64,000 nucleotides of DNA from NCBI RefSeq assembly GCF_003970675.1, contig NZ_CP034562.1:3942001-4006000 (forward strand). The letters are read 5' to 3'. This DNA is from Flammeovirga pectinis (GTDB lineage: Bacteria; Bacteroidota; Bacteroidia; Cytophagales; Flammeovirgaceae). A program made the position numbers and the translations under genes. The notes under the pieces are model-generated. The model ran no database searches, was not told where the DNA came from, and saw nothing but the letters and a program-made list of their open reading frames with translations. This document shows positions 46,764-53,243 of the stretch, piece by piece; positions within the stretch are counted from its first letter, which is position 1, and the number at the start of each line of letters is the position of its first letter.

Positions 46764-47852
46764 ATGAATAAGAAAATAACAGTTCTTGCAGGTGACGGTA
46801 TCGGTTTAGAAGTTACTGGCATCACACAAAATATATTAGAAATTATTGGAGAGCGTTTCGGACATAAATTCGAATTTTCTCCAGCACTAATTGGTCACTC
46901 AGCAATTGAAGCTACAGGTGAACCTTGTCCACAAGCAACAATTGATGCTTGTAATGCTTCTGATGCAGTTCTACTTGGTGCGGTTGGTATGCCAATGTAT
47001 GATAATAACCCTAACTTAAAAGTACGTCCTGAGCAAGGTTTACTTAAAATCCGTAAGGAGTTAGGTTTGTTCTCAAACATTCGTCCTATCAAATTATTTG
47101 ATGAGTTATTATATACTTCATCAATCAAACCTGAAATTCTTCAAGGTTCTGACATCGTTTTCTTCCGTGAGTTAACAGGTGGCATCTACTTTGGTACTCC
47201 TCGTGAGCGTAACGAAGATGGAACTGAAGCAATTGACACTTTACGTTACTCTAAAATGGAGGTAGAACGTATTGCACGTCAAGCTTTCGAATCAGCAATG
47301 ACACGCCGTAAGAAATTGTGTTCTGTTGATAAGGCTAACGTATTAGAATCTTCTCGTTTATGGAGAGAAACTGTACAAGAAATGACTGCAGAATTCCCTG
47401 AAGTAGAAGTTACACACATGTTCATTGATAATGCAGCAATGCAGTTAATCCGCGATCCTAAGCAATTCGACGTAATTGTAACAGGTAACATGTTTGGTGA
47501 TATCCTTACGGATGAAGCTTCACAAATTGCAGGTTCTATGGGTATGTTACCTTCAGCATCTGTAGGTAATACTATTGGTTTGTATGAGCCTATTCATGGT
47601 TCTGCTCCAGATATTGCAGGTAAAGGAATTGCAAACCCTATTGCTTCTGTTCTTTCTGGTGCTTTATTATTAGATATCTCTTTCGGATTAAAAGAAGAAA
47701 GCGATGCTATCATCAGTGCTGTAGACCAATTCTTAAAAGAAGGTTACAGAACTTTAGATATTGTATCTGAAGATACTGCTGAAGATAAGCGTATGAATAC
47801 GGAACAAACAGGTAAGAAATTAGCGGAGTTACTGTCTGCAGTAACTGCTTAA
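46764..47852 (+). CDS. leuB: 3-isopropylmalate dehydrogenase
   Basis: The 362-residue enzyme begins KKITVLAGDGIGLEV. It has LLKIRKELGLFSNIRPIKL near residue 93, the catalytic RELTGGIYFG near 134, and the C-terminal GLYEPIHGSAPDIAGKGIANP near 270. It oxidises and decarboxylates 3-isopropylmalate with NAD+. It is the last gene of the leuCDB operon and ends at a clear terminator. Confidence 0.97.
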   Translation: MNKKITVLAGDGIGLEVTGITQNILEIIGERFGHKFEFSPALIGHSAIEATGEPCPQATIDACNASDAVLLGAVGMPMYDNNPNLKVRPEQGLLKIRKELGLFSNIRPIKLFDELLYTSSIKPEILQGSDIVFFRELTGGIYFGTPRERNEDGTEAIDTLRYSKMEVERIARQAFESAMTRRKKLCSVDKANVLESSRLWRETVQEMTAEFPEVEVTHMFIDNAAMQLIRDPKQFDVIVTGNMFGDILTDEASQIAGSMGMLPSASVGNTIGLYEPIHGSAPDIAGKGIANPIASVLSGALLLDISFGLKEESDAIISAVDQFLKEGYRTLDIVSEDTAEDKRMNTEQTGKKLAELLSAVTA

Positions 47853-47882
47853 TTTGTACCTTATTTATATTGTTTAAATCTG

Positions 47883-47921
47883 AAACTGATAGTGGTGAAT
47901 AACTCCTATCAGTTTTTTTAT
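47883..47921 (+). terminator. Terminator of leuCDB
   Basis: AAACTGATAG / CTATCAGTTT, perfect 10-bp arms, followed by seven T. Confidence 0.87.
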
Positions 47922-47957
47922 TTCAAAATTTACAGTCAGCTTAACGATACTTATTTT

Positions 47958-48030
47958 CCACTGTTCGTTGTGTTAAGCCGATAGGCGTCACTACGAACTT
48001 GCCCATTGTTTAAGTTTTTAACTTAAAACA
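47958..48030 (-). repeat. RAYT flank repeat, inverted copy (R0)
   Basis: Read on the minus strand this matches the repeats at 48642-48730 and 49335-49425. It shares the GACGCCTATCGGCTTAACAC core and a TTTAAGT / ACTTAAA dyad. It sits just beyond the 3' end of the transposase pseudogene, so the gene lies between inverted flanks. Confidence 0.7.
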
Positions 48031-48041
48031 ATCCTGCATAT

Positions 48042-48591
48042 TCATCCTAAAATATCAACTTCCAAAGGATTATACTTCTTACCATGATAATTAGAAGCAC
48101 TAGAATAAAGATAATCATTTGCATCTTGTACAACCCCTGCATTAATAGGATTATCATGAATCTAATCGTTGCCTTAGTTTTATAGAAGTATCTAATAGAA
48201 TTGGGTGATTATGTTGTTGCCAAAATTGAAACTTTTTATTTCTTGCATTTTTTTGTCCTGCTCTTTGAAACATCCATAGCATCCACTCTTTTCGACTTTC
48301 AACTACATTTTCTTGGATACTTTTAATAATTGCTTCTGAAGTGTATTTTTTGAAATCTCTTAGAATATCAGAGATATCAATATGAAAGCCTTTGGAAATA
48401 ACAAGATGGATATGATTACTCATAATCACATAAGCATGAATTTTTAGTCCCTTCTCTTTTTGACAATACTTTAAACTTTCTAAGATGATATTACGGTATT
48501 TTTCTCTTGTAAATACATCTATTCAATAGACTACTGTCATCGTTACAAAATAGGTCGCTTCTTGATCGTAGAAAGAGTGTGTTCTAGCCAT
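48042..48591 (-). pseudogene. Broken REP-associated tyrosine transposase (RAYT, Y1/HUH type)
   Basis: Starting at the ATG at 48589-48591 the frame encodes ARTHSFYDQEATYFVTMTVVY. It stops at a TGA (48523-48525) where Trp is expected, and continues with IDVFTREKYRNIILESL. The HUH metal motif is intact in MSNHIHLVIS. Near 48157 a frameshift ends this frame, and the remaining family motif HDNPINAGVV and DYLYSSASNYHG is read in another frame to a stop at 48042-48044. Two independent lesions make it a pseudogene. The family moves short palindromic (REP-type) elements as single-stranded DNA. It is flanked by inverted copies of a roughly 90-bp repeat. Confidence 0.85.
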
Positions 48592-48641
48592 GATGAATCG
48601 TTTTAGTTAGTTTTCAATAATTAAATTTAATAATAATGTGG

Positions 48642-48730
48642 TAAATATTATCGTTTATGGTTTTAAGTCTCAGACTTAAATCAGTGGATAAGTTCTTAGT
48701 ACGCCTGTCAGTTTAACACAAAGAACAGAG
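48642..48730 (+). repeat. RAYT flank repeat, copy R1
   Basis: An 89-bp sequence with the dyad TTAAGTC-TCA-GACTTAA followed by TCAGTGGATAAGTTCTTAGT. It is nearly identical to 49335-49425 and inverted relative to 47958-48030. It lies upstream of the RAYT pseudogene. Confidence 0.8.
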
Positions 48731-48769
48731 GAGAGAGATAATATTCCAAATAAAAATATTGATAAAAAA

Positions 48770-49171
48770 TTAATAATTTTGACTATCCTCATCAGTTATA
48801 TCAATAACTTCATATGTTACTTTCTCACATTGAAAGAGTAAATTGGAACTTTCAAAGTCAGGATATGGTTCTGCATCAGTACCATAGGTTGCTCTTAGAT
48901 CTATCACCGTCTTACTATCCTTTTCAATAATAGCAGCTTCCCAAATTTGTAAACGCCCCAACTCATTGTCATAATTATACTTCATATAATCCACCTTATG
49001 ACATGTTATTATTAATTTTTCTTTAACATTAATATCCACAAGGGTAATTATCACTTCGCATACATTATATATATTAAAGTCATAGCGAAATTTATTAGGA
49101 TATATATTAACGGTTATACTCACTATTAAATAATCGTTTAAATCATAACGTTCTTTTATAAAATTCATCAT
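48770..49171 (-). CDS. Hypothetical protein between RAYT repeat units
   Basis: The 133-residue product has no signal peptide or membrane segment. Its first half is beta-rich with many Ile, Tyr and Asn (DYLIVSITVNIYPNKF). The second half is acidic, ending TYEVIDITDEDSQNY. Length and composition recall small cytosolic immunity-type or orphan proteins, but no family was recognised. The gene lies alone between the RAYT unit and its deleted derivative, so it may have been trapped or carried in by these repeats. Two ATGs, at 49171 and 49168, are possible starts. Confidence 0.5.
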   Translation of the reverse strand: MMNFIKERYDLNDYLIVSITVNIYPNKFRYDFNIYNVCEVIITLVDINVKEKLIITCHKVDYMKYNYDNELGRLQIWEAAIIEKDSKTVIDLRATYGTDAEPYPDFESSNLLFQCEKVTYEVIDITDEDSQNY

Positions 49172-49239
49172 TATTCTTTTGGTATAGATATATTAATCGG
49201 ATTTATATTTTTGTAAAATAAGAAATTATCAGAAGGTTT

Positions 49240-49317
49240 CCTCTGCTCTCCGTTGTTTAAGGTACTGTCTTAAAATATCAACATCCAAAAGATTATACTT
49301 CTTACCATGATAATTGG
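49240..49317 (-). repeat. Remnant of RAYT 3' end and left flank
   Basis: Positions 49271-49317 match 48048-48094, the last part of the RAYT pseudogene, with few changes. Positions 49240-49262 are a decayed copy of the left inverted flank. Joined to 49335-49425 they form a unit lacking nearly the whole gene. Confidence 0.65.
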
Positions 49318-49334
49318 AGTTAGTTATAACGCTA

Positions 49335-49425
49335 TAAATATTATCGTTTATGGGTTTTAAGTCTCAGACTTAAATCAGTGGATAAGTTCTTAGTGACGCC
49401 TATCGGCTTAACACGAAGAACAGAG
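49335..49425 (+). repeat. RAYT flank repeat, copy R2
   Basis: A 91-bp near-identical copy of 48642-48730. It differs by two single-base indels and a few substitutions, and keeps the GACGCCTATCGGCTTAACAC core seen in R0. Confidence 0.8.
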
Positions 49426-49582
49426 TAGTTAGTACTTACCATATTCGTACCAACCCAAATTCTTTCATTGGTTGAAAAATATCACCCCTTCGTTGAAATA
49501 ATTCATATTGCACTTCATTCTTTTCTTTATTTGTTATCATCAAGTAAACTACATATTTATCTACTCCATCATCCAACAATCA

Positions 49583-52369
49583 ATGAAGTCTATATTTTTT
49601 CTATTCTTAATTTTTATAAGCCTATCTGCACAAGCGCAAAGCATTCAAATTTCTGGAACAATTACAGGTAATGATACAAAAGAACCTTTAGTGAATGGGT
49701 TGATTACTATCTCGAATGGGGAGCAGAAATATCAGGTACTTTCTAATCTTGATGGACAGTATAAAATTACATTAAAAGAAGCTGGGAAATATACACTTGA
49801 AGCCATGTTTTTAGGGTATAAAAATTATACTTCTGAAATAACAATTACAGATCAAGCTACACAACAATTTGATGTTATTTTGCACTCCATGTTTACTGAA
49901 CTTTCGGAGGTAGAAATTGTTGGAGAAGTACCAATTGTGATTAAAGAAGATACAATTCAGTTTTCATCGAGTAGTTATAAAACACATGAAGATGCCACTG
50001 CTGAAGAACTCGTGACTAAAATTCCAGGGGTGGAAAAGGATAATGATGGAAATATTACGGCAGAAGGAGAAAAAGTTAAGAAAATTTTAGTGGATGGAAA
50101 AGAGTTTTTTGGAGATGACCCTAAAAGTGCTATGAACAATCTCCCTGCAGAAATGATTGATTATGTACAGATTATTGACCAAAAAAGTGATCAGGCAGAG
50201 TTCACAGGCTTTGATGATGGACAAAGAAGTAAAACCATCAATTTTGTGACTAAAAAAGATGCGAAATACGCGTATTTTGGAAAAGCGGAAGCTGGTTATG
50301 GAACGGATGAAAGGTATAGCGCTGCTGGAAATATCAATATTTTCAAGGGCGATCAACGGCTTTCATTTACAGGTTTGAGTAATAATGTCAATCAACAAGG
50401 TTTTATGTCTGACAATCTTACTTCTGGTCCTAAAAGAGGTAGAAGAGGAAAAAGAGGTGGAGGAAATTCTTCTCCTTCAAACAATATAACAGCAAAATCA
50501 AATGGTATTAATACTTCTCATTCTTTAGGAACTAATTATATAGATAAATGGGGTGAAAAAATAGATGTTTCTGGTAGTTATACTTATAAAATTGTAGACA
50601 ATGAAACAGATGAAACGTCTAGTACTGAGTATCTCATCTCGGAAGGTACAAATCAAATTGTTGATGAGATCTTAAATGTAGATTCTCATAAAGAAAATCA
50701 TAATTTAAATTTCAGAATGGACTATAATGTAAGTCCAAATACTACCATAAGAATAAGACCTATTGTAAAATTTGAAAATGGAAATGGAGTCAATCAAAGT
50801 TTATCTACTACTGCATTAAAAGAAGGAGAAAAGCTCAATAGTTCTGCCATGTCAGATTTTAATACGACAAATTCCGCTGATATTAATAATAGCTTTTTAC
50901 TACGTCATAAATTCAATGATAATGGACGAACATTAACTTTAGACTGGAAAGTATATTATCATAATGACGATACTTACCAAGATGTATTTACAAACATCAA
51001 TTACTACGAAAGTAATGGAACAGAAAATGATTCTACAGCTCAAAGGATTTTAGGTGATACAGAAAAATTTAGAACTTCTGCTGATCTTATTTTCACTGAA
51101 AAACTGGCAAAGAATTTACAATTGAAATTGAATTATTTTCAGAGTTGGGAACAGCAAGATGCGGATAGAAAAACATATGATATTATGGATGATGCCAACA
51201 ATGGCGATTTCATTGAAGACCTATCCAATACGTTTACCTCTAAACAAACTATTTATAGACCTGAAACGGGGTTAGTATTCAAAAAAGACAAACTGAATAT
51301 CACAACTTCTCTTCAGTACCAGTATTCCACTTTACATAATGAAAGCATTTATCCAACTTCCGAAACAACTACTACAAACTTCGGACATTGGTTACCTTCT
51401 GTTTTCTTTAATTATTCTTTTTCAAGAAGTAAAAGGATTAAATTTTCGTATCAAAAAAATGTATCCTTGCCTAATGTATCAAACCTACAATCTGTTGTAG
51501 ATTATAGTGACCCTCTAAATATAACTTCAGGAAATCCTTATTTAGAAGGAGAAGACAGCCATGTTTTAAGGTTGAATTTTAAGAATTTCAATATAGCAAG
51601 GAAAGAGCTTTTCTTTGTGAATATCACTGCTCAACAAACAGACAACAAGATTACACAATACACTTTTATTGCACAAAATGATACTACTATTAATAATGTC
51701 CCTCTAAAAAAAGGTTCGTCTTATACCTACCCAATTAATTTGGATGGATATATAAATGCAAGAGGAGTAATGGTTTATTCAAAACCTATCAAACCTATAA
51801 AGACTAATGTATCATCTATAACCACTGCTGGTTATACTCGAAATGTGGGAATAACCAATGATGTCACTTCTTTTACCTACGACAGTTCATTAGGTCAGGG
51901 TGTTAAATTCGCTAGTAATATCAGTAAAAATGTAGATTTTAATATCTCAGGAATGATGACATATCATTGGATTAGCAATAATGAAAATGCATCATTAAAT
52001 GGTAATTATTTACATAGTATGATCAAGACAAGCATTAATGTTGAGCCAATACAAAGGTTGATTCTGAATACTTCATTTATAGGTAATATCTACAATGGAG
52101 ACGATGATCTTATCCAAGATAATATCTATAAATGGAATGCTGCCATTGCTTATAAATTATTCAAAAAGCGACAAGGTGAAATCCGATTTACTGTCTCTGA
52201 TATATTAAATCAAAATAGTAGCATCAGCAGAACAGTTACTGAAAATGCTATTCAGACGAGTACTTATAATGTACTTCCTAGATATTTTATGGTTTCTCTT
52301 ATCTATCGTCCTAAAGGAAAAACAAATCCTAAAAAAGGCGGTAGAGGAAGAGATTTTATGCGTCTTTAA
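49583..52369 (+). CDS. Outer-membrane beta-barrel protein with carboxypeptidase-regulatory-like domain
   Basis: From the ATG at 49583 the 928-residue protein begins with a signal peptide (SIFFLFLIFISLSAQAQS). The longer frame from 49508 adds an implausible N terminus. A carboxypeptidase-regulatory-like beta-sandwich follows (about residues 22-105, ISGTITGNDTKEPLVNG), then a TonB-plug-like domain with VDGKEFFGDDPKSAMNNLPA. The rest is a large barrel of the OMP_b-brl_3 type that resembles TonB-dependent receptors. A GKTNPKKGGRGRDFMRL tail ends it. The ligand is unknown. The LTxxQ-type gene starts 33 bp downstream and is probably co-transcribed. Confidence 0.87.
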   Translation: MKSIFFLFLIFISLSAQAQSIQISGTITGNDTKEPLVNGLITISNGEQKYQVLSNLDGQYKITLKEAGKYTLEAMFLGYKNYTSEITITDQATQQFDVILHSMFTELSEVEIVGEVPIVIKEDTIQFSSSSYKTHEDATAEELVTKIPGVEKDNDGNITAEGEKVKKILVDGKEFFGDDPKSAMNNLPAEMIDYVQIIDQKSDQAEFTGFDDGQRSKTINFVTKKDAKYAYFGKAEAGYGTDERYSAAGNINIFKGDQRLSFTGLSNNVNQQGFMSDNLTSGPKRGRRGKRGGGNSSPSNNITAKSNGINTSHSLGTNYIDKWGEKIDVSGSYTYKIVDNETDETSSTEYLISEGTNQIVDEILNVDSHKENHNLNFRMDYNVSPNTTIRIRPIVKFENGNGVNQSLSTTALKEGEKLNSSAMSDFNTTNSADINNSFLLRHKFNDNGRTLTLDWKVYYHNDDTYQDVFTNINYYESNGTENDSTAQRILGDTEKFRTSADLIFTEKLAKNLQLKLNYFQSWEQQDADRKTYDIMDDANNGDFIEDLSNTFTSKQTIYRPETGLVFKKDKLNITTSLQYQYSTLHNESIYPTSETTTTNFGHWLPSVFFNYSFSRSKRIKFSYQKNVSLPNVSNLQSVVDYSDPLNITSGNPYLEGEDSHVLRLNFKNFNIARKELFFVNITAQQTDNKITQYTFIAQNDTTINNVPLKKGSSYTYPINLDGYINARGVMVYSKPIKPIKTNVSSITTAGYTRNVGITNDVTSFTYDSSLGQGVKFASNISKNVDFNISGMMTYHWISNNENASLNGNYLHSMIKTSINVEPIQRLILNTSFIGNIYNGDDDLIQDNIYKWNAAIAYKLFKKRQGEIRFTVSDILNQNSSISRTVTENAIQTSTYNVLPRYFMVSLIYRPKGKTNPKKGGRGRDFMRL

Positions 52370-52402
52370 TTCTCAAATTTTATAAAAAATAAAAACAACA
52401 TC

Positions 52403-53005
52403 ATGAAAAAATTTATTGTAACAGCTTTTATTCTATGCGTAAGTATAATTGGTTATGCTCAAAGAGGTTTCTCATCATTTTCACCAAAAGAGCTACCTGA
52501 GGTGATAACGGAACAAATGACATTAGATAAGGATACTGAAAAAAAACTGAATAAATCTTATATCAAATTGCAAGAAGATGTAATCAATACAATGATTCTT
52601 GCCAAACAAGAAGGAGAGGTAGATAAAGCAACAATCAAAAAAGAAATAGGAGATATTAGAGCAAAACACCTCAAAAAAGCCAAAGGACTTTTAGATGAAA
52701 AAGATTATTCAACATACAGTTCGTTTGTATTGATGGAACGCAAAGAACGTCAAGAATATATCGTTCAGTTAAAATTAAAACTTACTCCAGATCAGAAAGA
52801 AAAATTTGATGCTATAAATGCTTCGAATGAGCAAGTAATTGCAAAAATCAGAAAGGAACATAGAGGAGATAGAGAAGGAATGAAAGAAGCTTTAATGCCA
52901 ATCATGAAACAACAATATCAAATGTATGCTCAGTTTCTAACAGAAGAACAAATGGAAATTCTTAAATCTTTAAGAAAGATGAAAAAAGGAAGAGAGCAAA
53001 GATAA
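52403..53005 (+). CDS. LTxxQ-type (Spy/CpxP-like) periplasmic protein
   Basis: The 200-residue protein has a signal peptide ending GYAQR (cleavage near 20) and is otherwise almost entirely helical and charged. It contains LTPDQKEKF (near 133) and LTEEQMEIL (near 185), the LTxxQ motif pair of Spy/CpxP-like proteins. These act as periplasmic chaperones or metal sensors in envelope stress. Here it follows the outer-membrane barrel gene by 33 bp, so the two likely work together, for example in assembly of the barrel or in sensing its ligand. The partnership is inferred from position only. Confidence 0.68.
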   Translation: MKKFIVTAFILCVSIIGYAQRGFSSFSPKELPEVITEQMTLDKDTEKKLNKSYIKLQEDVINTMILAKQEGEVDKATIKKEIGDIRAKHLKKAKGLLDEKDYSTYSSFVLMERKERQEYIVQLKLKLTPDQKEKFDAINASNEQVIAKIRKEHRGDREGMKEALMPIMKQQYQMYAQFLTEEQMEILKSLRKMKKGREQR

Positions 53006-53243
53006 TATGCACATTAGAGATGGTAAATAGTAGTTTAAACTGGCAATTGTGTTTCTGTTGTCACTTTTTTTGTACTCTATCCATAAGTATCAATAATCCA
53101 TTTTTATAAAAATTGAAGTGAATTGATATTATTATATGACTATAAATGATATCCTTATTGGGTAAAATTTTGGCTTTTATTCGGAAAAACAAATCCTATT
53201 CACTGCGTTTAAATTGTTATATAAAAACAAAAATTTTAAGACA

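Follow-up and report, generated by a model that had tools for sequence, protein, structure and literature searches.

Downstream of leuB in the marine bacterium Flammeovirga pectinis lies a broken transposase gene between two inverted repeats, and the question it raises is whether these repeats bound a unit that the enzyme used to move. The genome is 6.68 Mb in three contigs; the locus was analysed within a stretch of 64,000 nucleotides of contig NZ_CP034562.1, called the window below, and bare coordinates refer to it. The order downstream of leuB is a RAYT pseudogene within inverted 75-nt arms, an orphan open reading frame (ORF) and a shrunken copy of the unit (Table 1). A preliminary description had placed inverted flanks round a Y1 transposase pseudogene, and its coordinates are close to those found here. 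We consider it likely that the unit is a dead REPtron of TnpA-Y1 subclass 2.6 (Bertels group 5) with inverted two-hairpin repeats, of a kind that the RAYT would move in relatives. The orphan ORF has no relative among the eight other Flammeovirga genomes (E≤0.001) and no match in Pfam or NCBIfam at E≤0.01; it was considered as cargo, and the eight congeners offer nothing to compare it with.

Table 1. Features of the RAYT locus and the adjoining derivative, in window coordinates.
Feature	Position	Strand	Basis
Left arm: two-hairpin terminal repeat, Hp1 then Hp2	47957..48031	+	Covariance model, 94.6 bits; covariation; copy included in model
RAYT unit, whole	47960..48734		Homology to G006 C1:4117166-4117952, 82% over 788 columns, begins and ends here
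RAYT (Y1/HUH) pseudogene, subclass 2.6-like	48042..48591	-	Low end approximate, set by homology to the G006 gene
Right arm: inverted two-hairpin repeat, degenerate Hp1	48658..48732	-	Covariance model, 64.5 bits; copy included in model
Hp2 of right arm, dyad TTAAGTC-TCA-GACTTAA	48662..48680		
133-aa ORF between RAYT unit and derivative	48770..49171	-	Open reading frame
Internally deleted derivative: 3' end of RAYT gene joined to right arm, left Hp1 missing	49250..49428		
Right arm of derivative (Hp1 and Hp2)	49352..49427	-	Covariance model, 78.0 bits (C1:3991352-3991427); copy included in model

The pseudogene starts with an ATG at 48591 on the minus strand, and its HUH motif (NHIH) is intact near 48400-48417. 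Both lesions reported earlier, a TGA and a frameshift, are present: the premature TGA lies at 48523-48525 (codon 23), and the frameshift is a 5-nt deletion near 48158, seen in an alignment to the gene of the congener G006, the closest intact relative (86% identical). To the earlier account we add that this deletion also removes the codon of the catalytic Tyr. Mutation of that codon to TAG was rejected as an explanation; the TAG belongs to the shifted frame, and what the alignment shows at this point is the 5-nt deletion. Because of the TGA at codon 23 and a deletion that both removes the Tyr codon and shifts the frame, the enzyme of the window copy, judged from its sequence, cannot be active. 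A working copy had been predicted to exist, or to have existed, elsewhere. This holds for the genus, with open RAYT frames (74-86% identical) in six of eight congeners, but not for F. pectinis itself, where the pseudogene is the sole match to the RAYT query at E≤0.01.

The class of the gene can be read from its intact relatives. The G006 RAYT matches Pfam Y1_Tnp and passes the NCBIfam model for REP-associated tyrosine transposases (NF047646; 100.8 bits, cut-off 80). In the PDB, sequence matches at E≤0.01 are limited to 4er8, the E. coli TnpAREP (E 1.7e-5 over the full sequence, with single stretches weak). An HUH motif (NHIH, NHVH or NHLH) and Y-x-H-x-N-P are found in 13 of 13 sequences of the intact RAYT alignment; the window copy keeps the HUH and is without the Tyr codon. 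Subclass 2.6, or group 5, is characterized in the available text of its description by NH[LIV]H, WQ, YIH[QN]NP, a length of about 179 aa and occurrence in Bacteroidetes (PMC6006769). The intact relatives agree with it in length, HUH, WQ and phylum. The third motif reads YIHDNP in the near-clade RAYTs, with D and not Q or N (YTHDNP in L086); YIHQNP occurs in L094, L095 and L097, YIHNNP in L098 and L107, and YIHDNP in L100.

Alignment of 24 F. pectinis arm copies yields a 75-nt unit composed of Hp1, a short linker and Hp2. Hp1 has a 10-bp lower stem, a conserved asymmetric 4x2 internal loop, a 3-bp upper stem and a mostly GNNA-type cap. In this alignment 92.2% of cells are paired, both sides have changed in 11 of 23 pairs, and the covariation score is 0.279 (0.136 shuffled). 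Cells changed on both sides number 48, compared with 17.6 +/- 2.9 expected from shuffles, where cells count related sequences and not independent events. For each of these four measures, none of 500 shuffles was as high; the remaining one of the five covariation measures, further pair types, showed no excess (22, with 21.5 shuffled; 243/500). The slid control leans towards the arm structure because that structure was drawn from the same sequences. The dyad listed in Table 1 had been put forward as a recognition hairpin. It is a real hairpin, the inner one, but the outer Hp1, located at the ends of the unit, is an equal or better candidate for recognition.

The canonical REP feature, GT[AG]G at the 5' foot of the hairpin, is absent from the arms, whose termini instead read YYYYCMCT before GTTC in 82 distinct copies (a set that left out copies below 35 bits or without a TGTT/TATT anchor, so that the T and the stem TT are fixed by the anchor). 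A C stands directly before the stem-side T in 94% of the 82; this T is part of the anchor there, yet it is invariant in the 24 aligned copies. As a sign of single-strand cleavage and strand transfer at the repeats, the C before this T is only suggestive. The GCTTAAC/GTTAAGC boxes of the arms resemble attC core boxes. An integron attC reading was rejected by inspection, as the palindrome opens with GTTC instead of RYYYAAC, and the arms are found in inverted pairs.

The second unit had been described as the end of the RAYT gene joined directly to the same flank, and the alignments bear this out: 49268-49318 corresponds to 48045-48095 (92% identity), and 49310-49428 to 48617-48733 (87%). From these two matches it follows that the derivative lacks the 530 bp lying between two ATAATTA heptamers. 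At its left end a weak Hp2-like stretch (77%) is kept, and the outer hairpin Hp1 is absent. Both parental ends without the gene, as in a MITE, are found in 240-bp gene-less pairs elsewhere (discussed below), whereas the window derivative is without the left Hp1.

It had been argued that a flank with no other copies in the genome, or copies that lack the dyad, would speak against the earlier account. Other copies exist, and those aligned contain the dyad position. A genome-wide search with a 20-mer from the flank core gave 10 matches with up to three mismatches, compared with none for the reversed pattern. The covariance model finds at least 34 arm copies in the F. pectinis genome at E≤0.01; this is a lower bound (150 of 4,946 first-look candidates were scored), and 24 of the 34 built the model and match by construction. 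Across nine Flammeovirga genomes the counts run from at least 21 to at least 125 per genome, again as lower bounds, with 150 first-look candidates scored in each. Outside the genus but within the family, one of nine genomes has arm matches, three weak ones with a best E of 3.9e-4.

The expectation that copies form inverted pairs is borne out in part: pairs occur, but 20 of the 34 F. pectinis copies are not paired tail-to-tail within 900 bp. Neighbours within 300 bp are oriented tail-to-tail in 24 cases, head-to-head in 8 and the same way in 4, counted among the 75 neighbour pairs that 97 arm matches form in the regions examined. Twenty tail-to-tail neighbours have a gap no longer than 60 bp and show the REPIN arrangement of two inverted repeats with a short spacer, recurring, although the arms are not canonical REPs. 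Spacers are 21 or 25 nt in four pairs on F. pectinis C2 and 22 nt in six pairs of G001.

Three arm-rich regions were noted in passing. The densest arm cluster of F. pectinis (C2:112.7-121.6 kb, L047) holds 13 of the 34 copies between unrelated genes, including four pairs whose gaps measure 21 or 25 bp. In G001 (C123:18000-30000, L163), many small minus-strand ORFs surround six 172-bp arm pairs, which have gaps of 22 bp and all fall within 6.3 kb. At F. pectinis C1:4341-4347 kb (L049) there is an array of Rhs-like C-terminal ORFs (named by eye) with small ORFs, and three arms, all on the minus strand, come after these modules. The arm as a boundary of polymorphic-toxin cassettes was considered and set aside; arms follow Rhs-like ORFs at C1:4343-4347k, and elsewhere arms lie in examined DNA that shows no ORF of this type.

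That the flanks are what moves, as first proposed, is best seen in gene-less inverted pairs. Two 240-bp pairs in F. pectinis (C2:870083-870322 and C2:1287417-1287655) are 96% identical, and G006 has a pair that matches the first of them at 97%. Between the two F. pectinis sites, the adjoining 300 bp on each side show no similarity. As far as sequence comparison can tell, such pairs at unrelated sites show that the arms move. The whole RAYT unit is likewise delimited by its arms, as a unit at another locus reveals: it aligns arm to arm with that of the first G006 RAYT, and beyond it, within 600 bp, only the derivative unit matches.

In all eight relatives, the 1.5 kb downstream of leuB has no arm (E≤1e-3) and no RAYT (E≤1e-5). 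In G001, G003 and G005 leuB adjoins an outer-membrane gene; G006 is without the whole 47920-53122 stretch at this place, which is not a clean empty site. The RAYTs of six congeners share one variable region adjoining pfaD, at a distance of about 1 to 23 kb (pfaD is seen in five of the six; the G004 contig, syntenic with G001, ends before it). The syntenic pfaD region of F. pectinis (C1:3185-3193k) has three arms and no RAYT. Because the RAYTs of the relatives share one region, as expected for vertical descent, it is from one case that we infer transposition of the whole unit. With a single relocated case, recombination with DNA of another strain could also have placed the unit at leuB. The RAYT would then not move its own gene, and homologous or illegitimate recombination with foreign DNA would account for the insert, which in its 1.5 kb also holds the orphan ORF and the second unit. 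RAYTs are described, in the available text of PMC8049555, as single-copy, vertically inherited and not copying themselves; the shared pfaD region agrees with this view, to which the leuB unit is one exception that could be due to recombination. We nevertheless regard recombination as unlikely, though a serious contender: homology with the G006 unit does not extend past the arm ends in either direction, and gene-less pairs with the same ends lie at unrelated sites.

The reading of the unit as a REPtron moved by its RAYT also concerns the association of gene and arms. Near-clade RAYTs at six loci in five other genomes have a match to the arm model on each side, in inverted order and at like distances (two in G006, and G005, G001, G004 and G008). 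Here, then, is the RAYT feature of a gene flanked by inverted, genome-dispersed REP-like repeats. In the sixth RAYT-bearing congener, G007, the locus is partly masked by N. This region (C1:2160-2163 kb; L089, L164) contains runs of masked N together with several fragments of RAYTs and may be a duplicated RAYT tract.

Inverted flanks bearing the same cap also accompany three further Flammeovirga RAYT types (7 loci), the two hairpins being judged by eye; L097 has inverted flanks without the cap, L096 has no clear inverted arms, and both arms of L093 match the model yet are unlike each other. Arm similarity rises with protein similarity (Spearman 0.71 over 105 non-independent pairs). The comparison was extended to 80 named Bacteroidota RAYT loci, the best of at least 476 relatives. 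Inverted flanks that score 40 bits or more are present at 51 of these loci, compared with 2 of 80 when flanks were swapped between loci; the gene end was taken at the first in-frame stop, and L167, L174, L200, L211, L220 and L232, cut short in this way, are retained in the count. The cap motif is found at 25 of these best 80 loci, on both sides at 16 (shuffled flanks: mean 1.15 and 0/80), and is shared by a subset of the subclass, not by the whole. A CT lies exactly at the stem foot in 9 of 39 folded arms from the 80 loci and within one base in 14 (12 of 51 arms gave no usable foot); with exact agreement in 9/39 only, a CT-at-foot rule across genera was dropped.

Such pairing of RAYTs with arms, including related arms belonging to the other RAYT types, argues against arms that are passive, whether as terminators or stabilisers at the RNA level or as repeats that another transposase, such as an IS200-type TnpA, has spread, with the RAYT lying between two of them by accident. 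Candidates for another transposase are at hand, as the F. pectinis genome has eight Y1_Tnp matches at E≤0.001, of which seven cover the full length, lie in open frames of 155 aa and score nearly alike, and the one of these seven that was tested is an IS200 TnpA by NCBIfam NF033573 (134.3 bits, cut-off 55). Arms also persist in G002 (33 copies, draft assembly), where the RAYT query finds nothing, and G003 (94 copies, draft assembly) has more distant RAYTs only. Since these two genomes keep copies without a near-clade RAYT, the copies outlast it or do not need it. Rfam gave no match at E≤0.5 in 47800-49600, and with the inverted flanks described above we find passive arms, with a RAYT placed between them by accident, improbable.

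IS200 elements end in subterminal hairpins, whereas the ends of the present unit are inverted copies. An ordinary IS200/IS605 insertion sequence is a highly improbable reading of the unit: it is discrete, has hairpin ends and shows the Y1/HUH fold by Foldseek (ISDra2 TnpA first, 4er8 second, on a modest RAYT model with pLDDT 67.5), but the G006 RAYT falls below the IS200 TnpA cut-off (NF033573; 30.4 bits, cut-off 55) and above the RAYT one, the reverse of the F. pectinis IS200 gene, and carries a YIHxNP-type motif, which separates RAYT from IS200 with its Y---Q in the available text of PMC6006769.

For the REPtron, with the RAYT as putative mover, we would propose the following single-strand mechanism and order of events. 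In working relatives the RAYT would bind single-stranded hairpins and cleave next to them, perhaps at the CT of the Hp1 foot; the scheme is modelled on TnpAREPs, which cleave CT according to the text available (PMC8266576). Stretches bounded by two inverted arms would be mobilised, mostly as short gene-less pairs (REPIN/MITE-like) and at least once as a whole RAYT unit. In the F. pectinis lineage, the RAYT would have gone missing from the region adjoining pfaD, where relatives carry it; a copy would have settled downstream of leuB and then decayed, and a second copy would have shrunk by the 530-bp internal deletion between the ATAATTA heptamers. More broadly, we put forward as a tentative idea, one somewhat short of probable, that group-5 RAYTs recognise a bipartite two-hairpin end and, in Flammeovirga at least, can move their own gene as an IS-like unit, shedding internally deleted and gene-less derivatives. 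If so, group-5 self-mobility would contradict the view that RAYTs never copy themselves, and the subclass would be intermediate between IS200 elements and domesticated RAYTs. Should the whole-unit relocation be transposition, RAYTs would not always be immobile.

Subclass 2.6 with atypical flanks is already in print (PMC6006769); in the available text, group-5 flanks are called atypical secondary structures and were found by manual inspection. The subclass 2.6 (group 5) REPtrons of Bacteroidetes described there share with the present system their length, most motifs, phylum and flanks without GTAG that recur in the genome. What differs is that the flank is here resolved as a two-hairpin 75-nt unit and that one unit is relocated. 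REPINs, as presented in the accessible portions of PMC3116915 and PMC8049555, are likewise pairs of short inverted repeats with a small spacer that recur without the gene, but here there are two hairpins per arm, no GTAG, and the numbers of arm matches per Flammeovirga genome given above. TIRtrons, or TIRYTs, similarly have a RAYT-like gene in long terminal inverted repeats and dispersed TIR families with some dimers (PMC3733652, available text), and subclass 2.1 accounts for 20 of 26 TIRYTs (PMC6006769, available text); the arm consensus here is without their GGGGWSAS motif, and the arms are structured hairpins. The GCGTC stretch at the Hp1 cap recalls CGTC-tagged REPs, whose tag, in the same portion of PMC3733652, is terminal, unpaired and has no associated transposase, whereas here it is internal and RAYT-associated. 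E. coli TnpAREP with its REP (4er8) likewise has CT next to the hairpin foot (PMC8266576, available text); the arms differ from that REP in having no GTAG and two hairpins, not one, and sequence similarity to the enzyme is remote. A literature search confined to open-licence papers brought up no title or opening of an abstract with a description of the two-hairpin arm unit.

The arms offer a concrete, covariation-backed substrate for work on binding and cleavage by group-5 RAYTs. The Flammeovirga series, with the gene intact in six congeners, relocated and dead in F. pectinis and not found in G002, presents stages of gain, decay and loss. Among the named loci, six from Pontibacter (L212, L216, L217, L232, L236 and L241) have inverted flanks of 145-155 columns that are 74-97% identical and contain several hairpins with the cap TTTAGCGNNAGCG or one near it.
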